Below, piece after piece: positions 2,935 to 32,500 of a stretch of DNA of 64,000 nt (position 1 is the stretch's first letter; each line of letters opens with the position of its first letter). This DNA comes from Synaphobranchus kaupii (Eukaryota > Chordata > Actinopteri > Anguilliformes > Synaphobranchidae). The stretch spans positions 110,098,407-110,162,406 of the forward strand of contig CM056377.1 of the NCBI GenBank assembly GCA_029718625.1, written 5' to 3'. Under the pieces are notes generated by a model that was not told the origin of the DNA, did not search any database, and was given only the letters and a program-made list of their open reading frames with translations. The position numbers and the translations under genes were made by a program.

Positions 2935-4678
2935 CACTTAAGTTGATATTTAAATTTTAATTAAATAACATTTAAACTGCCTATGAAATGTTTTTGCCCA
3001 GTATTTGCACTTAAAATATGCAATTGCACTTGAGATACTCTGCATATTTACTCTTGAAAAACTGCTGAATAAATATGTTAAATGTATATTGTCTTTGTTT
3101 TCATTTAAGTTTACCCAATTCAAATATTGTCTGTTTTTATAGGTGTGGTGAAATGACAGTTAAAATGTCAACTTTACAGAAGTGTAAATCTACAGTAAAT
3201 TGCTGACTACTGAGTTGCACTATTACAGTTGATATGTCAAAATACAGGTGATTACTGTAATTCTACAGCAGCATATCACAGTAATTCCATGGTCAGGTTG
3301 ACTGAAATTGCAGCACACAGTTATTTCATAAAGATTTACTGATAATACGATATGGAAATTACTGTGAAAGTAATGCAATTAGTAGCCAGAAATTTACTGT
3401 AAATTTAAAGTGAACTATTTTACAGTGTGTATTTTACAATGGGGGGGGGGGGGTGTGTTTGGGGTTTGCTTCACCAAAAATTTTGGTCAGCAGCCGCCAC
3501 TGATGTAAGGCTATAGCTAGGCTACAATAGCTTACCTAAAGCTGCCACAAGCGTTGCCCCACTGTAGCCTACTTTTGAGCCTGTTTTTTTTTTTTTTTGC
3601 TCTCTGTCTTCTTATTTAATGTACCGTTACATTAATTTAGAGGTCGGTCAATAGTTGGACCGAAGAAAGCACAACCAAATGCGTCCTCGGGTGCTTACGT
3701 GAAAACCCAGTAGAAAATACTGGGGAAAACTAATTTCTCACAGGAAATAACAGAATTTTACCGGACATGTCAATTCGCACGGGATTGCTTTAACCTGGGG
3801 TAATTTTTACAGGACATTTAACAGTAGGTAAAAGACTCCGGAATCTTTACTGGCGCGGGAGCGCGCAGTCCGTAAAAGTTACGGACATGGCAGATTCAGA
3901 CGGGTCTAAAATAGCGGGGCTCCTCCGGTAATTATTACATTACCCCACCTCCCCCTGTAAAACTTATCCCGTCCGAATAGGGCTTAAGGCGGAAATGATA
4001 AAAGAACAGTCCAATGAGCTCCAGCTGGTTGCTCCACCACCCAATCAATGATGATCGAGGTCAGACCAGACCAGACCTGTTCACCGCAGATCTTACATGC
4101 TGTTGAACGATCGTGCCTATTAAATTATGTATCTCTGCGTTATTTCTTTAGGTAATGTTGTGTTAATCTACATAATGTAAAAGCTAACTTACTGATATTA
4201 AGATTGCTGAGTGCTTTCTCCCTGTCACGCAGTAGGCTATGAGGAGTAGCAGCAGCGCCGATGTTAGATCTATTTCCTGACTACTATCTGCAACAAATGT
4301 GATTGAATGTTTGCCGTCTCGATTAAGCGATTGAGCATCTTCTCATCGGATAGGCTAAGCCTAGAAGGCCATGCATGAATTATGATTTAAAAAGCAGAAT
4401 TCGGCTATAGCTACCATAGGTAAATTACAATACTACAACCTCCTTTACAATTTCTCCATTTCAGTGGCGCAGTGCTTCGCTCTATGCACCAGGGTCGTGT
4501 TTTCAATTCACAATATATTGTTTTGTTGCATTTTAAATGCGTTCTGGGTGTGGGTGTTTTGTTCCACTACATTCAATTAACCAGTCCCTCTGCCTTGCTG
4601 AATAAAATTAATGCTATTGTGTTTCAACACATGTCCACTAGGTGGCATTCAGACACCTTTCAGTGGTAGTGTGTAGTC
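2935..4678. other. Intergenic, fragments of unnamed repeats
   Basis: No gene is seen. At 3120-3440 the motif ttacagtaaatt and its complement recur, which suggests an old palindromic MITE. There is a G run near 3441-3452 and a T run near 3585-3598. The segment about 3690-3980 is rich in short GC palindromes (for example gcgcgggagcgcgc) and may be another non-autonomous element. I cannot name either. Confidence 0.4.
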
Positions 4679-4845
4679 CAGGGGTAGGGAACCCTTGTCC
4701 TGGAGAGCCGCAGGGTCTGCTGGTTTTTGTTTTCACCTTACATACAGCAACTACTTAAAAGAAACCAGGCGAGGTGAGTTAACTGTGTAATCAACTGCTT
4801 TAATTGATCAATTAAGTGGGGAGTAACAACTAATACCAGCAGACC
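4679..4845. repeat. hAT-like short interspersed repeat (MITE fragment)
   Basis: It starts with CCAGGGGTAGGGAACCC and TCCTGGAGAGCCGCAGGGTC, wording seen in a common family of fish non-autonomous hAT elements. The right side carries ccagcagaccctcc, the complement of gggtctgctgg on the left. A clean target duplication was not found. Confidence 0.45.
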
Positions 4846-4948
4846 CTCCGATTTGTCGTTGTGTTTTGTACCTGTCCGCTTCCGTACACAAATACTATTC
4901 ATTTTCTGAATGCAACATTTTGAAAATAATAAAATGGTAAATGTGGTA

Positions 4949-6103
4949 TGTGCAAAAGTTTAGGAGCCCTTCCAGTTGATCAATTAATACTTTTTCTGAA
5001 GGTCTCAACACGTTATTGACTTGTTAGGCCTTAAATTAAGCCAGATGAAGACAATTCCAGAGCTTAATAAATACTCTTAACCCTTCTAACCTCTCAAGGT
5101 TTTGTACCTTCTCTCAGTAACCATGGGTTCCTCTAAGCAAAACCCTCATGTCCCTGCAAAGGACCTGCAGAAAGGTTTAGCTGACACCTGAGTATTGGTG
5201 CACTGTCCACTGTGCAGTGTTGCTTACACAAAAATGATCTGCATGAAAGAGTTGTCAGAAGGAAACCTTTCCTGCGATCTCATCTGAAGTATGCAACACA
5301 ACACAACTGCATCAGTCAAACCTTTTAATAAAGCTCTGTGGAATGAAGAAACAAATTAAACCCTTTGGCCACAATCACCAAAGAAAGAAAAATGGGGAAG
5401 CATTTGAAGAAAATAACGCTTTGCCAACCGTTAAGCATTGGTTGGATCTATTATGTTTTGGGTTTATGTGGCAGCCAGTGCAGGAAATATTGTGCGAAAG
5501 GAAGGAAGAATTGATTCAACTAAAAGTCCTCGAAGCTAAAGGTAATGTCCCAGAGTTAGTGATGAAATTGAATCTGGAAAGAGGTTGGATATTTCAACAA
5601 GACAACTATCCAAAACATATCTCAAAATCGACCATGAACTCCTTAAAGGAACAAAAGATTTTGGGAATGGCCTTCACAATACCCAGACTTGAATAGTATT
5701 TGAAATCTGTGGGGTCAAACATGCAGTGTATGCAGCATGCAGTGTACACAGCAAGACCTCTGAATATTTCTCAACTAGAATGGTTCTTCTGCAAGAAAGA
5801 GTGGAAGAAATTCCTACAGCAAGAATAGAAATGGTGGAATACTGTGATTTCTAACAAAGGAAATGTTACTAGTAAGTGCTAATTGACAGGTAGCCCAAAC
5901 CATTGCACATGCCCTGTTTACTATTTATATTTTATTTTTTAAATGCAGAAAATAAAAAAGTAATTGTGCATTGAAATTTACAGAAATATGTCATGTTTAA
6001 GTTTGTTCTCTGCAGAGGTTCTGTTAACTTATTTTCAAATAGAGTAATCAACAAAATAATCAACAAAACATGCAAATTGACCTAGGGTGCCCAAACTTTT
6101 GCA
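4949..6103 (+). mobile_element. Degenerate Tc1-like DNA transposon in intron 6 of serpin copy 1
   Basis: The ends are inverted (left tgtgcaaaagttt, right aaacttttgca) and flanked by TA at 4947-4948 and 6104-6105. The internal ORF fragment at 5343-5696 resembles Tc1 transposase around the second catalytic Asp (WIFQQDNYPKH). Frameshifts and a lost C-terminus make it dead. The same insertion, shortened internally and broken by a Harbinger-like element, occurs at the matching intron site of serpin copy 2 (about 41034-41220), so it predates the serpin duplication. Confidence 0.85.
5343..5696 (+). pseudogene. Tc1 transposase remnant
   Basis: A 117-codon open piece of a Tc1/mariner DDE transposase. 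GEAFEENNALPTVKHW matches the usual 'GEAF.p.nt.PTVKHGGG' block. WIFQQDNYPKHISKS carries the second Asp of the DD34E triad. The glycine-rich segment before it is disrupted, and the frame is lost just where the third acidic residue (the 'WPSQSPDLNPIE' block) should follow. The protein cannot be active. Confidence 0.8.
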
Positions 6104-6392
6104 TACCATTGTATTCTTAGTTTACAACCTTAGTGATACTCACTTTATAACATATATAATGAACTATCTCCAATTGTGTGAACATTCTTTTACAGATGCT
6201 GTTCCATTTTCATAACATCATCTAACTTTAATATGTCCGTGGCTATACGAGTTGCACAAAAACAGTGATTGAAATGAAGCAACATAAATCTTTGCTTATG
6301 GAACTGTGGCTATTATTGGTTCATTGTCTGTCTTGATATTGTTTATTTATTGCAAAGTGTATCTGAAAGCTCTGCATTCTGCACTTTGTCAG

Positions 6393-7152
6393 AAAGTAAG
6401 CCAGTGCAGGTGATGCAACAGACGGACACGTTTGGTTTGGCGACCATTCCAGAGGTCAATTGTCAGATTCTGGAGATGCCTTACAAAGGTAAAGAGCTGA
6501 GCATGCTCATTCTACTGACCCAAGAGATTGAGGATGACTCCACAGGACTTGTGAGGGTAAGACTGAAGTTTGTGTACAAGGACTTAATGGCTTTGTCATC
6601 TACAATAATGCCTACAAGGCAATCAAAACAATACCCAGTGGTTTCGAACAGAGTATTAGAACATGTGGTATGTTATATTATATTATATAGAGTTGTTTGA
6701 AGCCCTCACTCACAATTGGAACAATGACTTATTGTCTTCTACAGTTGGAAAGGGAGCTCACGTACGAGAAGCTCATTGAGTGGACACAGCCTGACATGAT
6801 GGAGAATACTCAGATAAATGTGGCTCTGCCAAAGTTCAGAATGGAAGAGACATATAACCTTGAAGACATTCTAGTCGGTTTGGGAATGAAGGATGCCTTC
6901 GATGTGTCCAGAAGCGACTTCTCTGGCATGTCTCCCAGCAATGGACTGGTGGTGTCCAAAGTGGTGCACAAGTCCTTTGTGGAGGTGAATGAGGAGGGCA
7001 CAGAGGCCGCTGCTGCCACTGGCGTCCTCATTGAGGTGCGAAGTTTACCTATGCCACCACCAACTTCGTTCATTGCAGACCATCCCTTCCTGTTCATCAG
7101 ACACAACCCTACTCAGAGCATCCTCTTCTATGGGCGTCTCTGCTCCCCTTGA
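6393..7152 (+). pseudogene. Serpin B copy 1: last two exons, 4-bp loss at an exon start
   Basis: The penultimate exon is 6393-6556 and the last is 6745-7152 (stop TGA). They read as clade B serpin: [20 protein letters not shown], then [20 protein letters not shown] and the C-terminal block ending FYGRLCSP. The matching exon in copy 2 starts aatgaaagtaag after its AG. Here the four bases aatg are missing, so the exon is 164 instead of 168 bp, and reading from the usual phase-0 acceptor meets TGA after a few codons. One Phe codon is also gone in HPFLF-IRHN. The reactive loop still reads [18 protein letters not shown] with Arg-Ser at predicted P1-P1'. Exons 1-6 are not found in 1-6300 and may lie upstream. 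An alternative acceptor could rescue the frame, so 'pseudogene' is likely, not proven. AATAAA is at 7443-7448. Confidence 0.75.
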
Positions 7153-7646
7153 AGTTTTAAGCTCTGCAGTTTCCAGTTATAAGCTGCAGTCTAAATAAAG
7201 GATGTCTATGTTAAATCGCTCCACAATTCTTTTTGCCTAAAAAATATGTAATTGACTAAATCTTGTTTAATTTTTATCTGCTTTGCAGAACTTGGACAAA
7301 CTGCTGCAGTACATTGTATTCATTCATGTCCATTGTATCATCTTTGAAGTTTACTACTGGCTCAATATCAAATATTGTTTATGCCTGTTCACCGAGCAAC
7401 TAAAAATAACATGCAATAGCCAATATATTTCACATTTGTGAAAATAAAAGACAAGTTTACTGTGTGGGTTTCTTTATTAACCTGATCAGCTATTGTATCA
7501 GAGGAATACTTTTCATGCACAGCAGGTACAGGAAGACTGCTAATCAACTGGAGATGTTACTTTAGCGTGACAATCATGCCAGTAAAAACTCCATATCGGA
7601 CTAAAACTGTGATTGATGATGCGCCACTTGATTCATTAAATCCAGT
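7153..7646 (+). other. 3' UTR and downstream flank of serpin copy 1
   Basis: It contains a poly(A) signal AATAAA at 7443-7448 and aligns by eye with the flanks of copy 2 (42259-42670) and copy 3 (52455-52985). After the LTR pair the same homology to copy 3 resumes at 10231-10440. Confidence 0.7.
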
Positions 7647-7651
7647 GTTTT

Positions 7652-9117
7652 TGTCATGAACCTGAATACGGGCTGGACCCAAATGCAATGACCAGGAGGC
7701 AGAGGGACAGAAAAAGGTAGTTTATTATAGCTTGGGGCAGTCCCAAGCTGTACATAGATTACAAGCAGGAAAACAATAGAGATTCTCCGGGACTTCACTT
7801 TGCTCCAAGCCGGAGCTGGACTTGAACTGGAACGCAGAATGTTCCAAGCCGGAACTGGACAGGACGGGGAACTGGATCGGATCACACCGGAACTGGACTA
7901 ACTGGAACACTGGGTTGTTCCAAACCGGAACTGGACTTGGTACGGGACACTGGATGTTCCAAACCGGAACTGGATCGGGTCAAATTGGAACTGGACCAGA
8001 CTGGGACACTGGGTTGTTCCAAACCGGAACTGGACTGGACAGGAACTGGATCGGGTCAAATTGGAACTGGACCAGACTGGAACACTGGATGTTCCAAACC
8101 GGAACTGGATCGGGTCAAACTGGAACCGGACAAACTGGAACACTGGAATGTTCCAGACCGGAACTGGACTGAGCGGGTCTCAGGAATTGTTCCAAACCGG
8201 AACTGGACTTAGCGGATCTGGATAGACGGGACGGATAGGGGGAGCGCTAGGCATCCAATAAATAAGCTTCGAACTTGACTCCTGAAGCGAGGGAGGACAT
8301 AAAGCACAGACAACCGGTTATGGAAATACATGAAATTTAGAGGAGGGGAAACCGGGGTGTACTGTTAACAGGTAACCAGGTAATTGAAGCAGAGGAAGGG
8401 GTAGCGGCAGAATACGGCAGGGCAGTGCAGCGGACCTCAGGCCGGCCCGGTAGAGGCAGCAGGGCAACAGCAGTAGATGCCACCGGAACCGTAACAATGG
8501 CGGTAGGCACGGCCGGACAGGAACCACTGTAGAATGGAGGAGCAGAACGCCCCGCTGTGGGCGCAACGTCAGGAGGGAGCGGAGGTACCGCAACACAATC
8601 AGGGAGTAGCGCACAACTGCAGACTGGCAGAAACAATAGAGTGGTGGTTAACGAGACAGGCAAAGCGCGGCAGGTAGGACCGCAGATAAACAGGACAGAC
8701 TAGCAAACAACAGTAGGCAGTGTGCATTTAAGCACCGAGACAGAACCAAACTGTAGCAAGATAAACAGATAAGGGAATTCTAGACCAGGATACAAACGAA
8801 ACAACATTAACGAACTGGCGCTGAATAGCAACCAGCAGGAGGGTTAAATAGGGAGTGAGATTGGAAACAATTAAGAAAGCGTGCAACTGTAAGCGTGGGT
8901 AATTGAACAGAGCGGAGTGTGAGGAATGCATGCTGAAATGGAGAAAGGAGATAGGCTGAGACAGGAGTGGGGAAAAGGAGTGAAACAAACGGAGGGAACA
9001 CGCCCAGTCTGCAGCAAGGGGGAAAACACGGACAATGGGAATCAAACATGACACGGAGGGAAAGGGCAAAACACGGAAAACGGACAGGATGGGAACGGAA
9101 CGGGAACGGAACGTTAC
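7652..9117 (-). mobile_element. LTR, reverse orientation, left member of a head-to-head pair
   Basis: It starts TGTCATGAACC and, read on the - strand, runs from a U3-type TGTAACGTTCCG end (9117) to a U5-type end at 7652. It shows a reverse poly(A) motif (tttatta near 7720), a TATA-like ctatttaaccc near 8845 and an internal array of variants of CCAGTTCCGGCTTGGAAC at about 7805-8215. It is the same family as the solo LTR at 13598-14999. No internal retroelement genes accompany it. Confidence 0.75.
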
Positions 9118-17300: not shown

Positions 17301-18366
17301 AAATTTGGTGGGCGGGGCTTAGAATAGAGATTGGAGGGAGGAGAGCAAAAGGGAAGTCTTTTAGCCTTCTGTATTTTCAAACTTGCCTACTGCAGCTTTA
17401 ATCCTATTTCCCCAATATTTTGCTTGTAGTGACTAAGGTTATTTAATTTATCCAATTTGTTGCCATTTCACATAAAAAATTTGTATAGATAGGCTATGCT
17501 AATGATCCAGTGTACTCATTCTGGTTTCATTATGGATCAAGCTATTTTCTCTTTTAGATAAATTTTGTTCATTGTATATTAAAAAAGTCTAATTTGCTCT
17601 ATTCATTACTTTTAAAAAATTGTGGAAGAATGAATCCTATCCAGGATTGTTAAGGCCAGGGCTGGTGACTGAACACAAAAGGGACAATAGATAACAAGGG
17701 TAGTAGTGGATCAAAAAGTTTTAGTTTATTTATAGCAGTCCTGTAACAGCAAGGACATGAATGATGAATATATGAATGATGGAAATAAGGTGGCTCTGGA
17801 GAGAGGTTGTTCGGCACACACTGAATGTGAGGCTGGAAAAAAGAGACACGAGAAATCGATACTCTACATCAGGAGTATGTTAAAATCAGCAATAGTTGTT
17901 CATCACTGGTAGAACAATAGCAGTCAGGCGGAAAGTTTGACAATAGAGGGTAGAACAGAGCCCTTGGTTTGACTACCAAAGACTGGCCTATCTGGTAGCT
18001 AACACTTTACAATAAGGTTACATGAATTGGCATTAACTAATGTAGTTGTTCATATGAATTAATGATGTACAAATATTATTGAAGTATTTTCAAACATTAA
18101 CAAATGGTCTGAAATGACAAACCATTAGTTAAATGTATTTGTCAACTGTTTATTAACAGTAGGCTACAATCCGTAATGTCTGCGCCGCGCTGTGTTTAGC
18201 TGAATAGTACAACACGAGCTACTGACAACAACGTTTCGTCCTCGGTGGCTCATCCGAAGTTGATTCAGAAGCTGACATGATGTTTTCTAGCTAAGAAAAT
18301 GATTAGCTAGCTAGACCACGTATATAGCTACAGGGCGCCCTTTATCGGGCACGTCCTCGTTCAACC

Positions 18367-18447
18367 ATGTTTGAACTTCCTCGAGAGCTGATTTGCCAAC
18401 GAAAAAAAAGAAAACCAGTATTTCCCACCCACTTCAAACCAAACAAG
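18367..18447 (+). CDS. Possible first coding exon inside the 4.3-kb element
   Basis: ATG in a good context (caaccATGt) opens 27 codons ending in a splice donor (aacaag|gtatgt at 18448). The peptide is rich in basic residues mid-way (QRKKRKP, NLS-like) and ends PTHFKPNK. A CpG-containing stretch (about 18180-18360) lies upstream, as expected for a promoter. No second exon was found, so this may be chance. The function is unknown. Confidence 0.3.
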
Positions 18448-18638
18448 GTATGTATCCGCTCATTTTCATGAATATTTAACGATATTTACACATTTTATGA
18501 GCCTTTTTATCACGCCCCCTATGTGAAAAAAATGTCCGAAATCTGATTCTACTTCTGCGCTGGTGTACTACACTGCATAGTCTTGTTTACTTCGGGGGAT
18601 TTAATTAAATAAAATGTCGCTAAAACTTTAGCTAGATA

Positions 18639-19310
18639 GCCAATATATTGGTTATTCAAACGGTATCTTTCTTGATGAAATAAACTAGTAGCCTAACTGA
18701 TTCTTAAAACAACAATAATCATGAGCTTGTTTATGGATTACAACAGCCGCCCGATAATGGGCGCCCTTTCTTTGGCAGTCTCGTCTCATCTTAAAGACGT
18801 TAAAACGAAAAAAAAAAACACGTTATTGGCTTAAAAGTTAACATCGTTTTTGTAAAGAAATAAATCTCTTTTAAGCCAATAAACGATAGTTGTCTCCCCT
18901 TTTTTGACATTACTGTCTCATCTAAACTAAAAGACGTTAAAACAAAAAACTACCGGTCACGTCTAACTTACATGTTTAATATTGGCTTAAAACTTAGTTT
19001 ATCGTATTGTGAAGAAATAAACCCAATATTGACATCTTTCGGACTGCCAGGTAAACTATCCAGTTAGCCAGCTATTTTGCCAACATATTGGTTATTCAAA
19101 CGGTATCTTTCTTGATGAAATAAACTATTAATTGATTATTAAAACAACAATATTCGTGAGCTTGTTTATGCACTACAAGAGCCGCCCGATAAAGGGCGCC
19201 CCTTTTTTGACAGTACTTTCTCATCTAAAAGACGTTAAAACAAAAAAAACTACCGGTCACATCTACATGGTTATTGGCTTAAAAGTTAGCTTATCGTTTT
19301 GTGAACCTAA
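18639..19310 (+). repeat. 440-bp tandem repeat with GCCCGATAAAGGGCGCC hairpins
   Basis: The segment starting gccaatatattggttattc at 18639 recurs at 19079. Each unit carries a short palindrome of the form GCCCGATAAxGGGCGCC (18749-18766, 19184-19200). The inverse occurs at 18333-18350 and a diverged one at 19386-19400. Confidence 0.75.
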
Positions 19311-20370: not shown

Positions 20371-20731
20371 GTCTGCGTACCTTAGCAACAACAGCAAAAT
20401 TAGTATTTCCATTAAAACTGACTTGAATTGTCTTTCCGTCTCTGTTTCTACAATGTTGAGGAATGATATTTGCTTATTGTCTTCGTTGTATTGCCTGGTT
20501 ATTGTATTTTCCAAGTTTTGCATATTTCAAACATTTGAAAGTGATTGGAAGACACAGTTGAAAGTGATTGGATGACCACCTTTTTCTTTAGACCGGGAAA
20601 AGTTTAGAGTTGCCTTTTTACTTGTCAGTCAAGATAACTAACTTAAACGAATACAGTAATTGACGTTAGCCAAATATGTCAAAGAAAAGAAATAGCCTAG
20701 TGACTAATTGTCAAAAAGGGCTTTAGTTTTT

Positions 20732-21645
20732 GAGATACCCCTCCCGGAGGTAGAACAAAAGCCAATAATGTTTTTCCTCATCTTTAAGGTCTCCCATATA
20801 TGAAATGGATTCTTGGCAAAAAATATTTTGGTGCAAAAATGGTTAAATTGATAGATATTGTTATACACCCCAAAACAAAAAAAGAACAAAAATCTAGCCT
20901 GGCCGTATGGGAGTTGACACATTTAAACTCATGTAGATTAATAATACAAGCTCTGAGAGCTTTCAAACTTTACATGCTATCAGTCAGGAAGTTGCTTAAC
21001 ATATTGGGGGGGAAATTATGTGATTATCTTGAGGAATGTAGGAAATATAGCGCTCTGAACACATAACTAAAATAAGCGGAAATGTAAAAAATCAATATAT
21101 ATACAGAATGTTCTCATTTACTTTGTAGTAACTCTGCCATGGATTGTGATAGAAACACCTATGATGGCTTGCTGGAAAGGTGTGGTTGTACTGAATCCAG
21201 CAATGTCACATGTGTAAGTGTACCTTGCATAGTCAGGGAGTTACATCCCCAAATGTATGAGGTGTCCCAAACGAAAGAAAACAAAACATTGACATACTAA
21301 CTGTATCATTATCAGGGGTGAGAAGAACATTGACACATTCAACTCAAGCAGAAGCAATGATACTATAGAGGAAATTCACTTGATTAAAAGTAAATTAAAG
21401 GTGATATTTACAACTTTTTCATCAAAACGAATAATTTTTCAAAAATAATACATCCACAGAACGTATAGAGGGGTGTAGAATAAAAGTATTAATTGTACTG
21501 AAAAAAAAATATTATAGTATAGAAATAATTGTTTTATAAATTTTGACGGGTCCAAAACATATAAATATTTACATCTGGTTACGTTGGTTACGTCGACAAG
21601 AAATGCTCTCGTAGCTCTCTGCGCTAATAGCATAAGGACGTTGAT
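20732..21645 (+). repeat. Left arm of the 0.9-kb inverted repeat
   Basis: Begins gagatacccctcccggagg and ends gcataaggacgttgat. It differs from the right arm by single bases and a 9-bp duplication (gttacgttg near 21575-21595). An 88-codon open frame (20800-21066) is repeated in the other arm with one residue changed, which reflects arm identity and is not evidence of coding. Confidence 0.9.
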
Positions 21646-21908
21646 ATCACGTGAGGCGGAGCTCAGGGGTTGCCAGATCGTAGCTCTGCGGAGGATATAC
21701 CACGAAAGACTCCTCGCTTGACATCTCTCTGTCCAATCGGGTATTTGCATGGATGTATAAAGATATTTGGCCAAGTTACCTGGCAACCACTACAATTGAA
21801 CGTTGGAACGAGAGCGGGCGAGTATGAGTGCGACACCTACTGGCCGGGAGTAATTAAACTTGCAAATATCACCTTTAAATGTATTTAATACCCCCCCCTA
21901 CCCCCACC

Positions 21909-21946
<38 letters not shown>

Positions 21947-22235
21947 GTAAGTGTACCTTGCATAGTCAGGGAGTTACATCCCCAAATGTATGAGATGTCC
22001 CAAACGAAAGAAAACAAAACATTGCCATAATAACTGTATCATTATCAGGGGCGAGAAGAACATTGACACATTCAACTCAAGCAGAAGCAATGATACTATA
22101 GAGGAAATTCACTTGATTAAAAGTAACTGAATCCAGCAATACCACATGTGTAACTATAGCTTGCATATTCAGGGAGTGACATCACTAAATGTATGCAGTG
22201 TCCCAAAGGAAAGAAAATCAAACATTGATATAATG
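21193..22235 (+). repeat. Three tandem subterminal units of about 0.2 kb, split by a MITE and a microsatellite
   Basis: The unit starting ctgaatccagcaat (acatgtgtaag..., gggagttacatcccc..., gtcccaaacgaaag...) occurs at 21193-21395 and again, less its start, at 21945-22127. A third, diverged unit is at 22128-22235. The MITE and the CA run lie between units 1 and 2. Confidence 0.8.
21398..21881. mobile_element. TTAA-type MITE inside the left arm
   Basis: The ends are inverted (TTAAAGGTGATATTTACAA at the left, TTGCAAATATCACCTTTAA at the right), consistent with a piggyBac- or Kolobok-like TTAA target. It has no ORF of note. The right arm holds only the outer ~250 bp (24728-24975). Confidence 0.7.
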
Positions 22236-22594
22236 AAACTCCAAAAAACATTGTCAGTGTCTTTACTGCAAAAAGTCATTTGAGGAAAAAGTTGATCTAC
22301 AATGTGAATATATGATATTTTTCATTATGGAATATATGATATATGGAAACAAAGATACAATTGAATCAGATTGAAATTGAACACATTTATTGTAATATTT
22401 TCATCCACTTCAGTTTCTTTTTGGCCAAATCACTACTATAGAATGCAAAATAATGTTAGCTACTGGTTCAAATAAACTTGTTATAACAAATTATGTATAA
22501 AGGAGATGCTTTAATTCTATGGATGAAAAAGCTGTGAATTTTGTTATCTCTGTTGACTTTTCATTAGCATTGCAATCTACTGCAGACATCACCG

Positions 22595-24364
22595 TCACTC
22601 ATCCACATGATCATCCATGGCAAAATGGGTCACATTTGGGCAGTCAGGGAAAGAGCAAGAGCAAAACTCAGTGCATGCCAAGCCCACTGATAGACATTGG
22701 CATTTGCTGGCATCACTGCAGTTTCCGTCTTTACAGTATAGGTGGGTGATGTCTCGGACTTCCTTAGGTGCAGGTGCTTTCTGGAACATCACAGGTTCAA
22801 TGGACCCATCTTCTCTGAGTCTCCATCCTTTACCAACTGGGTTCCAAAGATGTGGCTTGGCCAAATGGCTGTGACGCCACACAGCTGTTTGATACAAGGC
22901 TCTTAACACATGTTGCTGGAAAGCATCTTCTGTTGGGGGTAGAGTTGCAGCTGATGAATCCGTTGTAGATGCAAGCGTGTACCTCAGCTCATCCAGGTTG
23001 GTGCAAGGATTCCCATTCTCCTTTTTCCTTTGGCCATACAGCAGGAGGGCATACTGTCTTGCCACTGGAAAAGCCTCCTCTATGCTTCCAGAGAGTCCAA
23101 AATTAGCCATTTCTTTTAATTCGCTCAGATGTGTCTTCAGTCTTGTGAAAGCAGTAGTCTTCCCAATTCTGTACAAGCTGCTTGTGGTATCACAGCCTGT
23201 GATGGCATGGCATGCAGGTAAACATTCACACAGTGCTGCGCCAAGCTTCTGAACGATGGAACAGACTGGTACAAATCTTTCCTTTGGGCCATGTCCAGAA
23301 TGCATGTACACCATTGAGGATCCAAACATCCCTTTGCTGGAATAGTACACAAGCAAAACCAGTACATCTGTATCATCACATTTAACAATGAGACGAGAAT
23401 GTGACTGTGCAAGGTGTGTTGCATGTAACACCAATCTTGTGTCTGCCTCCTCCTGGTCACTATACAGATCTGTCAAGCAGTCAATGCCTGACTTGCTCAC
23501 CATCTTGACCTCTTCACCATTTGTGAAGCCACCAGCCAAGATTATTGTGTTCTCTGAAGAGATTCTCTGTGGCCCTGTATTGGTTATGTAGTTGCTGACA
23601 AAACTACATAGAGCAGCCTTGTTCCCACTGATCCTCAGGTATTTCCTGTAGTTTGGAACATTTGATTTTCCTGTGATAACATGGGTTGATCTGCCGGTTT
23701 GGATGGTGCCTCTTCTTTGCCTTTCAAGGTCTTTGATTGAGTTGTGATGGTCATATCGGTCAAACACTATAGCAACACAGTTGATGCATTCCTTTCCCAT
23801 TAGCGTTGTGATCTTTTTCCAGACACACTCGGCCAGGTCATTGAATGTCTGAAAGCCTGAGTCATTGAGACTCTGTAGAAGAGCCATGCCATCGATGATG
23901 TATGCTGATGGTTCTGCAACATTAGGCAGCTGCTGTATCTCTTCAGCTACAGCCTCCAGTTTCTTAGCAAGGTCAGCTTTCGTTGTCTTCCTCATGCTTC
24001 CATCATCATAAAACAAAGAGGGGGGGACAGCAGCGAGTTCATGGGACATCACTGTCTCCAAGGACACCTCTCTTTGCTTGGAGACAGCAAGTAACCTTCG
24101 AAAGAGGACATCTGAGTCCATGTGAACCTTTCTAGATATACTGACTCCAAATGATGCTTTCATGTCTTTGAAGGTTGCACACTGTTTTCTTTTATCGGTC
24201 TCCCAGAAGCTCTTGGTTCTTTTGGATTTTGCCAGGCGTTGTTCAATAAATATGTCATTCTGCTTTGCACCATCTTGCAGGAAGCTTGAGAGCTCTTTTG
24301 CAACTTTCTCAGATGCAACCTGACCACTTGCAATATTGATTAGTTCCTCATCATTGATCAGCAT
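22595..24364 (-). CDS. FEN1/XPG-like (PIN-fold) nuclease with C-terminal CXC-type cysteine cluster
   Basis: An intact ORF of 589 codons from ATG at 24364 (a GTG two codons earlier is also in frame). Numbering from that GTG, signs of the 5'-nuclease superfamily are: AYIIDGMALL with Asp160; VFDRYDHHN and the basic SIKDLERQRRG (Asp204), matching the 'VFDG..p..K..e...R..RR' block of FEN1/XPG; EEADTRLVLHA (Glu307/308, Asp310), matching FEN1 'EAEA'; CDDTDVLVLL (Asp333, Asp335), matching 'EDMD'; and TGCDTTSSLYRIGKTTAF (Asp394 plus an H2TH-like turn), matching 'GSDY...GIG'. The C-terminus (546-577) has spacing C-x4-C-x5-C-x-C-x6-C-x3-C-x-C-x4-C, like CXC/tesmin zinc-binding repeats. All acidic positions are kept, so activity on DNA structures is plausible. 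Proteins of this architecture are scattered through animal genomes as uncharacterised multicopy genes, as I recall. A poly(A) signal in reverse lies near 22388. Its place between large inverted repeats suggests it belongs to a mobile element. Confidence 0.75.
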   Translation of the reverse strand: MLINDEELINIASGQVASEKVAKELSSFLQDGAKQNDIFIEQRLAKSKRTKSFWETDKRKQCATFKDMKASFGVSISRKVHMDSDVLFRRLLAVSKQREVSLETVMSHELAAVPPSLFYDDGSMRKTTKADLAKKLEAVAEEIQQLPNVAEPSAYIIDGMALLQSLNDSGFQTFNDLAECVWKKITTLMGKECINCVAIVFDRYDHHNSIKDLERQRRGTIQTGRSTHVITGKSNVPNYRKYLRISGNKAALCSFVSNYITNTGPQRISSENTIILAGGFTNGEEVKMVSKSGIDCLTDLYSDQEEADTRLVLHATHLAQSHSRLIVKCDDTDVLVLLVYYSSKGMFGSSMVYMHSGHGPKERFVPVCSIVQKLGAALCECLPACHAITGCDTTSSLYRIGKTTAFTRLKTHLSELKEMANFGLSGSIEEAFPVARQYALLLYGQRKKENGNPCTNLDELRYTLASTTDSSAATLPPTEDAFQQHVLRALYQTAVWRHSHLAKPHLWNPVGKGWRLREDGSIEPVMFQKAPAPKEVRDITHLYCKDGNCSDASKCQCLSVGLACTEFCSCSFPDCPNVTHFAMDDHVDE

Positions 24365-24677
24365 TTTCACATCACATAATATTTGAAATGATTTACCTGT
24401 TAGGTTGTGAAGATATCCATGAAGACAATGATATAGCTGCAGCTGGATCCAAACAGTAGCCTAACAGTAGCCAAGAGCACATCAACTCAAACAGACTTGA
24501 TGCAGTTGATTGATTTGCTGTGATGAGGAGCATCAGGTGGATGTGGCTTGGCTTACCTCAGCCAGGCAAGCTAAATCAATTACATATTAGTATGTTTTTC
24601 ACTGGAGTAGCATACATTATACTTTAGTTGGATTTGCATGTATTTTATGAAGACTGCAGAATAAACCAATTTCTGTA

Positions 24678-24716
24678 CATTGTGCGTGTGTGTGTGTGTG
24701 GGGAGGGGGGGGGGAT
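24678..24716. repeat. GT/G-rich microsatellite, inverse of 21891-21945
   Basis: tgtgcgtgtgtgtgtg followed by a G run. Its inverse stands behind the MITE of the left arm, so it marks the inner limit of the inverted duplication. Confidence 0.8.
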
Positions 24717-24727
24717 TGTATGTATAA

Positions 24728-25633
24728 ATCAACGTACTTATGCTATTAGCGCAGAGAGCATTCGAGAGCATTTCTTGTCGACGTAACCAAATGTAAATAT
24801 TTATATATTTTGGACCCGTCAAAATTTATAAAACAATTATTTCTATACTATAATATTTTTTTTCAGTACAATTAATACTTTTATTCTACACCCCTCTATA
24901 CGTTCTGTGGATGTATTATTTTTGAAAAATTATTAGTTTTGATGAAAAAGTTGTAAATATCACCTTTAATTTACTTTTAATCAAGTGAATTTCCTCTATA
25001 GTATCATTGCTTCTGCTTGAGTTGAATGTGTCAATGTTCTTCTCACCCCTGATAATGATACAGTTAGTATGTCAATGTTTTGTTTTCTTTCGTTTGGGAC
25101 ACCTCATACATTTGGGGATGTAACTCCCTGACTATGCAAGGTACACTTACACATGTGACATTGCTGGATTCAGTACAACCACACCTTTCCAGCAAGCCAT
25201 CATAGGTGTTTCTATCACAATCCATGGCAGAGTTACTACAAAGTAAATGAGAACATTCTGTATATATATTGATTTTTTACATTTCCGCTTATTTTAGTTA
25301 TGTGTTCAGAGCGCTATATTTCCTACATTCCTCAAGATAATCACATAATTTTCCCCCCAATATGTTAAGCAACTTCCTGACTGATAGCATGTAAAGTTTG
25401 AAAGCTCTCAGAGCTTGTATTATTAATCTACATGAGTTTAAATGTGTCAACTCCCATATGGCCAGGCTAGATTTTTGTTCTTTTTTTGTTTTGGGGTGTA
25501 TAACAATATCTATCAATTTAACCATTTTTGCACCAAAATATTTTTTGCCAAGAATCCATTTCATATATGGGAGACCTTAAAGATGAGGAAAAAACATTGT
25601 TGGCTTTTGTTCTACCTCCGGGAGGGGTATCTC
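24728..25633 (-). repeat. Right arm of the 0.9-kb inverted repeat
   Basis: Complement of 20732-21645, ending ggaggggtatctc. It contains one subterminal unit and a truncated MITE. Confidence 0.9.
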
Positions 25634-25814
25634 CAAATTTTGGGGGCATTGTCACTAGCCTAAAAGCAGCTCAGCATTGTGGAACTGTTGAGTCTGAAAA
25701 AGAATGAAAATAACAATTCGGAGAATCAGCTTTCGGAGAACCAGTCCTCAGCTGAGGATGAGTTAGCCCCACCGGGACACGAGCTACCCACCAAAATGTT
25801 CTTTTATTTGCAGT

Positions 25815-29500: not shown

Positions 29501-32500
29501 ATGGAGTCACTGGTTGCTTCAAATACCAAGTTCTCCCTGGACCTGTTTAAGAACATAACTGAGAAAAAGAAAACGGAAAACATCTTCTACTCACCAATCA
29601 GCATCTCCTCTGCTCTGGCCATGGTGTACATGGGGGCCTGGGGGAACACAGCTACAGAGATGGCCGAGGTGAGTTCACCCAGGCACAGTGCCACTCTCAG
29701 ACATCCCAGCACACCACAACTGCATTGATACAGTTACATTCTGTGTAAGGGTGTATTTTTACAGTATCTCAGCAACCTCAGTGTAACAGACATTTTGGTA
29801 GGGATCATCCATTGAGGAGACTTACTGAATGTGTTATTTTTATGGACATCTTATGAAATAAAACTGTTTTGCCACATTTTTTTTTTTGCCACATTATTAA
29901 AAAAACAAACTTATTTTAAAAAATAAATACATTTTAATGCAAGTAATGTTCTGTGAATTCAATCATAGCCAATGCTTTTGTTTAAATAAAGCATAGATGC
30001 ACTCATAAACCTGTCTGTTTTAATCGTATGCTCACCTCCTTAAGATTCTGTCACATTTAAAGGTTAGGTACATTTTGTGGTGTTAGACATACTTTGTCAT
30101 TGCCTTTTCATCATTTTGTAAATATCTGACCTTTTAGGCTGGAATATTGGCCTTTCATTTGTACACATATTATGGGAAAATGATTAAAGTCTACAATCAG
30201 TCTGCTTCTAATTGAGCCGAGATATCTAAAATGTTTAATTAGGTGTGGTTGTGAAACCTCACCTATTGTTATTCACCATACGTATTAGGTGTGGTTGTGA
30301 AACCACACCTTTTGTTATTCACCATACTTATTATTATTCCAGCGCTTTTTGAGAACCTCGTCCGACACTATTCACATCATCGACACCATTCATACCTCAT
30401 ATTATACAGTTGAAGTCGGAAGTTTAAATACACTTAGGTTGAAGTCATTAAAACAAATTTTTAACCACTCCACAGATGTCATGTTAGCAAACTATAGTGT
30501 GGCAAGTCAGTTAGGACATCTACTTTGTGCATGACACAAGTAATTTTTCCAACACTTGTTTACAGACAGATTATTTAACTTTTAATTCACTATATGACAA
30601 TTCCAGTGGGTCAGAAGTTTACATACACTAAGTTGACTGTGCCTTTAAACAGCTTGAAAAATTCCAGAAAATGATGTCATGGCTTTAGAAACTTATGATA
30701 GGCTAATGACATCATTTGAGTCATTACTGGAGGTGTACCTGTGGATGTATTTTAAGGCCTACCTTCAAACTCAGTGCCTCTTTGCTTGACATCATGGGAA
30801 AATCAAAATAAATCAGCCAAGAAAGAAAATTGTGGACCTCCACAAGTCTGGTTCATCCTTGATTTTCAAATGCCTGAAGGTACCACGTTTGTCTGTACAA
30901 ACAATAGTATGCAAATATAAATACCATGGGATGACGCAGCCGTCATACCGCTCAGGAAGGAGATGCGTTCTTTCTCCTAGAGGTGCTTTGGTGCAAAAAG
31001 TGCAAATCAATTCCAGCAAAGGACCTTGTGAAGATGCTGGAGGGAACAGGTACAAAAGTATCTATATCCACAGTAAAACGAGTCCTATATCGACATAACC
31101 TGAAAGGCTGCTCAGCAAGGAAGAAGCCACTACTCCAAAACTGCCATAAAAAAGCCAGACCACAGTTTGCAACTGCACATGGGGACAAAGATCTTACTTT
31201 TTGGAGAAATGTCCTCTGGTCTGATGAAACAAAAATTTAACTGTTTGGCCATAATGACCATTGTTATGTTTGGAGGAAAAAGGGTGAGGCTTGCAAGCCG
31301 AAGAATACCATCCCAATCGTGAAGCACGGGGGTGGCAGCATCATGTTGTAGGGGTGCTTTGCTGCAGGAGGGCTTGGTGCACTTCATAAAATAGATGGCA
31401 TCATGAGGAAGGAAAATTATGTGGATATATTGAAGCAACATCTCAAGACATCAGCCAGGAAGTTAAAGCTTGGTCGCAAATGGCTCTGCCAAATGGACAA
31501 TCAACTAAAGCATACTTCCAAAATGGCTTAAGGACAACAAAGTCAAGGTATTGGAGTGGCCATCACAAAGTTCTGACCTCAATCCAATCAAAGATTTGTG
31601 GGCAGAACTGAAAAAGCATGTGCGAGCAAGGAGGCCTACAAACCTGACTCAGTTACACCAGTTCTGTCAGGAGGAATGGGCCAAAATTCCAGTAACTTAT
31701 TGTGAGAAGCTTGTGGAAGGCTACCCGAAACGTTTGACCCAAGTTAAACAATTTAAAGGCAATGCTACCAAATACTAACAGACTGTATGTAAACTTCAGA
31801 ACCACTGGGAATGTGATGAAAGAAATTAAAGCTGAAATAAATAATTCTCTCTACTATTATTCTGACATTTCACATTCAAAATTAAAATAAAGTTTTAGAT
31901 CCTAACTGACCTAAGACAGGGAATGTTTACTAGGATTAAATGTCAGGAATTGTGAAAAACTGAGTTTAAATTGATTTGGCTAAGGTGTATTTAAACTTTT
32001 GATTTCAACTGTACCTTTATACACCCTCCAGGTTGCTATTGCTTTTTACCTTTATACCATATACGCTTTTTCAGATAATTGACCTTTTATCGCCAAAAAA
32101 ATTAATGGGAGTCAATGGGCACATTTTGAAAACTGATGCAATAGAATGTGGATGCTGCAACATATTACACTGCTTATAATGACATCACAATGCCTTCCTC
32201 TACAACACTGTCATGACCTAACAATACTATCTCAGATGATTGACATTACCTTTGTGTGCGTTTATCACAATTCATTACTTATTTGTATCACTTCCAGGTT
32301 CTTTCGACTACTTACCACAAAATACATCACCATATTTTAACATTTTCACCTTCTTTAGATTGGGATGGCAGATATGCCATCCGCCAAGTTACGGCTTGGC
32401 GGGGCATGCCCCATACCTATACAGCACCGAGTTTGGCACTTTTCAGTGTTTCCTACAGAAGTAACCACAATGACCATAGACTCTCAGCCCTTAAAAACAT

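Follow-up and report, generated by a model that had tools for sequence, protein, structure and literature searches.

A non-autonomous transposon, probably of the AcademX kind, carries a predicted FEN/EXO1/XPG-type nuclease in Synaphobranchus kaupii

An uninterrupted reading frame for a FEN1/XPG-like protein lies between two long inverted repeats in the genome of Synaphobranchus kaupii, within the 64 kb stretch of DNA that we analysed (hereafter the window; C2:110098407-110162406 of the 1.5-Gb assembly). The initial annotation of this locus proposed an intact element of a possibly new class, in which the nuclease would act on its own extruded ends by a mechanism unlike that of DDE transposases. 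The locus therefore raises the questions of whether this is a mobile element, whether the copy is intact and whether its class is new. The frame itself is as it was described, with 589 codons from ATG (591 from GTG), and its parts are as follows.

22595..24370, minus strand: open reading frame, 591 codons and a stop; homology with relatives is confined to the part from about 24350 downwards
22835..23983, minus strand: predicted FEN1/EXO1/XPG-type nuclease domain, residues 130-512 of the frame
22640..22735, minus strand: CXC-like cysteine cluster, residues 546-577 of the frame; profile match to the LIN54 CXC domain, E 0.003

The structure model of the nuclease was confident (pLDDT 88.7, pTM 0.81) and matched EXO1, FEN1, XPG and XRN in structure searches; on this modelling evidence the nuclease is predicted to have the FEN/EXO1/XPG fold, in agreement with the annotation. 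The acidic motifs that had been quoted are all present, and in an alignment of 70 sequences each of their acidic residues is either invariant or conserved in 90% or more. A search of solved structures by sequence with the window frame gave no match. Identity with the FEN1, EXO1, XPG and XRN nucleases is about 14%, and the nuclease of the window family differs from them in its fusion partners, a transposase-like region and a CXC-like tail. The likeness implies no role in cellular repair. The nuclease of AcademX transposons is of the XPG type. The cysteine cluster gave a weak profile match to the CXC domain of LIN54, whereas the Pfam scan showed no TCR domain in the window frame; among the 18 proteins scanned, TCR rose above the cut-off in P0160 alone and stayed under it in P0025 and P0019.

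The arms that enclose this frame were also found much as reported, at 20728-21645 and 24728-25637 (about 910-930 bp) by self-comparison of the window, and when the ends are aligned along their whole length they agree in 915 of 925 columns, with a further 29 gap columns, which is far above chance. Copies at other sites place the limits of the element slightly beyond these arms, at 20693-25662, and with these limits both strands of the element start with 5'-TAG.

20693..25662, minus strand: whole element, 4970 bp, with its 5' end at 25662 and its 3' end at 20693, set by copy comparison
20693..21645, plus strand: left inverted arm, the 3' end of the element; terminus TAGCCTAGTGACTAAT
24728..25662, minus strand: right inverted arm, the 5' end of the element; terminus TAGGCTAGTGACAATG
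20690..20692, no strand: target-site duplication AAA, left copy, set by copy comparison
25663..25665, no strand: target-site duplication AAA, right copy, set by copy comparison
21946..22232, plus strand: two extra partial copies of arm segments on the 3' untranslated side, 181 bp at 97.8% and 107 bp at 86%

The last 30 bp differ between the two arms whereas the rest is near-identical, and both end types recur when further complete copies of this family are examined; this suggests that the arms of the window element were homogenized by recombination or template switching. Our first reading of the duplication, made from the window alone, was GCC with ends TAGTGAC, and it looked significant in a shuffle test (50 of 20000 shuffles). 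However, GCC or GGC recurs at this position in the family's other copies with that end. The triplet is therefore part of the element; the actual duplication is AAA, and the shuffle result is no evidence for the AAA reading.

We then considered the family as a whole. Related stretches number at least 86 in the S. kaupii assembly (74 of 358 candidates scored), and 20 of them were retrieved for comparison. The left arm has matches at no fewer than 59 places (40 of 181 candidates scored); at a minimum of 15 of them, on C2, C3, C4, C9, C14 and C22, the match spans 910 or more of the 948 bases, the window's own two arms being included in these 15. Inverted arms thus accompany the nuclease family at unrelated sites of the same genome, as the annotation had anticipated. 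Elements were counted as complete when both ends lay within the retrieved stretch; L024, L025 and L026, with one end motif found, were left out, and the short stretches L003-L010 were not used for setting ends. Exact 3-bp duplications flank 17 of the 18 complete elements, the exception being L020. After shuffling of the right flanks among the elements, 3-bp matches averaged 2.3 with a maximum of 9 in 18, and a 4-bp match was found for none of the 18 elements.

A related empty target was found for five of the 18 elements, in the window or at the retrieved loci. Four of these (those of L016, L017, L022 and L028) read straight through with a single triplet: the L016 site has zero differences over 60 bases, that of L028 carries substitutions, the duplicated triplet included, and that of L022 has 16 matching bases on its right side before diverging. 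The empty site of L012 has a 7-bp gap near the junction and was not counted as read-through. These elements have conserved TAG ends and insert with a 3-bp target duplication, and the proposal of a mobile element with a FEN-like nuclease of its own holds. Complete relatives occur elsewhere in the genome, so that the locus represents a real mobile element, but probably no new class. The empty site matching the L022 insertion lies in the window itself, at 30614-30647, in a repeat that we take to be the end of a Tc1-like element.

Three separate families that encode this kind of protein were distinguished among the retrieved elements. F1 comprises seven copies (L011-L017) of 6.0-6.1 kb, one each on C1, C3 and C16 and two each on C4 and C8. 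Their frame is open over 1,520 codons from ATG, with 0-6 residue differences between pairs over 1,535, and their DNA is 99.87-99.97% identical to that of L011, one copy having a short deletion; all have perfect 3-bp duplications. The near-identity of these copies indicates a recent spread, and we regard F1 as a candidate for a currently active transposon. F2 and F3 have two copies each, with frames of 1,493 and 1,483 codons respectively. Arm length varies among the families: the longest arms, of about 930 bp, are those of the window family, against 412 aligned columns for F1, about 370 bp for F2 and about 130 bp for F3.

The copy in the window is not the intact element that it was taken to be. 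Complete relatives have about 1,480-1,680 amino acids, of which the window frame represents the last third. When 11 relatives were compared with the 64-kb window by tblastn, similarity started at 24343-24358 and ran downwards from there, and for five relatives of 1,563-1,684 amino acids it started at their residue 1001-1085; the window frame thus aligns only to the C-terminal part of the 11 relatives. The only other matches of these 11 proteins in the window were two with E values of 0.6-0.7.

24350..24358, minus strand: deletion junction with short filler; about 3.8 kb of L022 is missing

The counterpart of the missing part is found in L022 (on C14), a member of the window family of 8,830 bp with the arms and termini of the window element. 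On the coding strand of the extracts, positions 2996-4300 and 4308-7966 of the window correspond to 532-1857 and 5684-9362 of L022, and the junction thus joins L022 positions 1857 and 5684 with filler between them. Although its frames are broken, L022 has frame pieces that match residues 12-562, 561-1060 and 1057-1591 of P0130. As L022 shares the arms and ends and still has the coding part, a loss of about 3.8 kb can be assigned to the window copy; it is an internal-deletion derivative of an 8.8-kb transposon and is non-autonomous. Within the lost coding part lie two Cys/His clusters and a D...D...E pattern of the sort typical of DDE transposases. The filler lies between sequence from upstream of the gene and coding sequence, and the first few codons of the window frame, ATG included, consist of this upstream sequence and filler, so that its ATG is an accident of the junction.

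What the full-length protein carries in this region bears on the supposed absence of a DDE mechanism. In an alignment (A2) of the 23 relatives longer than 1,350 amino acids, D507, D671, H701 and E927 (P0130 numbering) are invariant in all 23, and the same acidic residues are found in F1, F2, F3 and L022. Two N-terminal Cys/His clusters are also conserved among these long relatives, with P0160 being without the first two of their cysteines. Some DDE transposases show a D...D...E arrangement in which a helical insertion precedes the helix that carries the last E. In the model of P0016, which is without the stretch carrying the first D, the second D (residue 101) directly follows a strand at 96-100 and E360 lies inside a helix at 355-368. 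Structure searches with this model gave credible matches to nucleases only, with no DDE structure matched; because of this and of the missing first D, we treat the upstream region as a putative DDE-type transposase domain, proposed from sequence conservation. The claim of a mechanism unlike DDE is not supported, given this pattern in the complete proteins. Pfam DUF6589 (PF20231) scored above its cut-off over the putative DDE region in three of the 18 proteins scanned, P0091, P0162 and P0226, all of which already carried that label in the search listings from which they were chosen. The other 15, among them the full-length proteins of F1, F2 and F3, scored below it, and these families differ in this from the DUF6589 proteins that their three relatives resemble.

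Relatives are widespread. Of 7,994 candidates scored in a protein search with the window frame, 188 were relatives, including several of 700-1,030 amino acids; the search with P0016 gave 85 among 7,992, including eleven of P0130-P0141 (1,590-1,609 amino acids), and a further search gave 494 among 7,990. The hosts among the named matches listed (for the last search, the best 120 of 494) are fishes, hagfish, molluscs, arthropods, a priapulid and cnidarians. Protein and alignment scans of viral contigs found no relative, and the arm pattern had no match there; phages searched with the window frame and plasmids searched with P0016 likewise gave none. A scan of genome contigs yielded two loci from 182 matching stretches, L001 and L002, both in bacterial records. 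These two, from a Planctomycetota bin and a mussel gill symbiont record respectively, are eukaryotic-looking transposon pieces and are probably host or environmental contamination. L002 contains a partial relative between TAG-starting ends with TTA on each side, and its contig is probably mussel host DNA.

Given this architecture and the length of its duplication, we consider the window element to be, with high confidence, an internally deleted copy of an Academ-kind (AcademX) DNA transposon with terminal inverted repeats. In PMC10045372, where Kojima 2020 is cited for the AcademX lineage, AcademX is described with duplications of 3 or 4 bp and AcademH, within the same superfamily, with 9 or 10 bp, a difference linked to the encoded nuclease or helicase. 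The window family resembles AcademX in its predicted FEN1/EXO1/XPG-fold nuclease and its 3-bp duplication, a comparison made with the published description rather than with sequences (PMC10045372), and it differs from AcademH in having a nuclease in place of the helicase and duplications of 3 bp, as in 17 of the 18 complete elements compared, instead of 9 or 10. The window copy departs from AcademX in having lost its transposase part. The host also fits, as PMC4746887 lists Academ for zebrafish, medaka and stickleback (absent in tetraodon) and PMC6404401 notes it in FishTEDB; curated Academ elements of bivalves have a mean length of 5,565 bp according to PMC10294476. The claimed new class is thereby replaced by a defined transposon family with exact ends, a duplication length and empty sites. 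Among the matches listed (the best 15-20 titles of the open-licence literature) there was no experimental study of such an element; F1, with its open frame and perfect duplications, lends itself to tests of how a transposase fused to a flap-type nuclease works.

In the mechanism that we propose, a complete element encodes a single protein of about 1,500-1,600 residues, in which the two N-terminal Cys/His clusters may bind zinc and DNA. The putative DDE-type transposase would bind and cut the TAG-starting ends and then insert the element at a new site, giving the 3-bp duplication, which is observed together with the empty sites. The nuclease domain probably acts on a strand or flap, by trimming or cutting it, as the element is excised or joined, the CXC-like tail would bind DNA, and movement would be of the cut-and-paste type. 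The window copy has kept both ends and lost the DDE part, and is therefore expected to be mobile only with protein from a complete copy. The absence of a matching duplication at L020 and the broken frames of L022 count against this explanation, as do the structure searches that credibly matched nucleases only and the few DUF6589 scores above the cut-off. A more specific division of labour, which we think rather doubtful, would have the DDE domain make the strand-transferring cuts and the FEN/EXO1-type nuclease make or trim the 5' strand and so set the 3-bp stagger, with nuclease-only derivatives such as the window copy supplying this activity in trans or competing.

The other readings of the locus can be set against an AcademX-kind transposon. 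That the family is a TIR transposon with the same protein, in a superfamily separate from Academ and still unnamed, is improbable: the likeness to Academ comes from a description and not from a comparison of sequences, and DUF6589, the sole Pfam name for the domain, gives mostly weak or no scores, but nuclease and 3-bp duplication together fit AcademX as described in PMC10045372, and Academ is reported from teleosts and bivalves (PMC4746887, PMC6404401 and PMC10294476). We find it very improbable that the long inverted repeats of the element, once extruded, are recognized and cut by its FEN-type nuclease alone, in the absence of a DDE transposase. Such a new class would account for the conserved acidic residues that the nuclease has all kept, for the long and nearly identical arms and for the inverted, foldback-like structures of several derivative copies; against it are the large conserved D...D...E region upstream in the full-length proteins and the combination of 3-bp duplications with short conserved ends, which suits a DDE transposon. 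Moreover, the families encoding this kind of protein have arms of anything between about 130 and 930 bp, which implies that the protein needs no long extrudable arms.

A host gene, i.e. a domesticated nuclease-CXC protein lying between inverted repeats by chance, deserves hardly any credence, even though the frame is uninterrupted with its conserved acidic residues kept, as the arms, ends and duplication are those of a whole family, the ATG lies in upstream-of-gene sequence beside a deletion junction, near-identical broken copies occur elsewhere and the related stretches in the genome are as numerous as given above. An AcademX-kind transposon is thus the reading that we retain.

Several further structures were noted around this family. 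L023 and L027-L030 are rearranged derivatives of it, with end types swapped relative to the direction of the frame and with inverted duplications on the 3' side; as the latter make the block order more complex, we do not claim that recombination between the arms simply inverted the interior. L027-L030 are four copies of 4.2 kb at different sites, 98.6-99.8% identical to L027, which retain part of the putative transposase region but have lost most of the nuclease part. In the window, two stretches at 18325-19257 are 97-99% like sequence 5' of the frame in the F3 elements L020 and L021, and are perhaps another repeat nested in both the window and those elements. A further arm of L025 lies outside the retrieved stretch, at C3:74371835-74372721, and this element may either extend over about 12.6 kb or contain an insertion.
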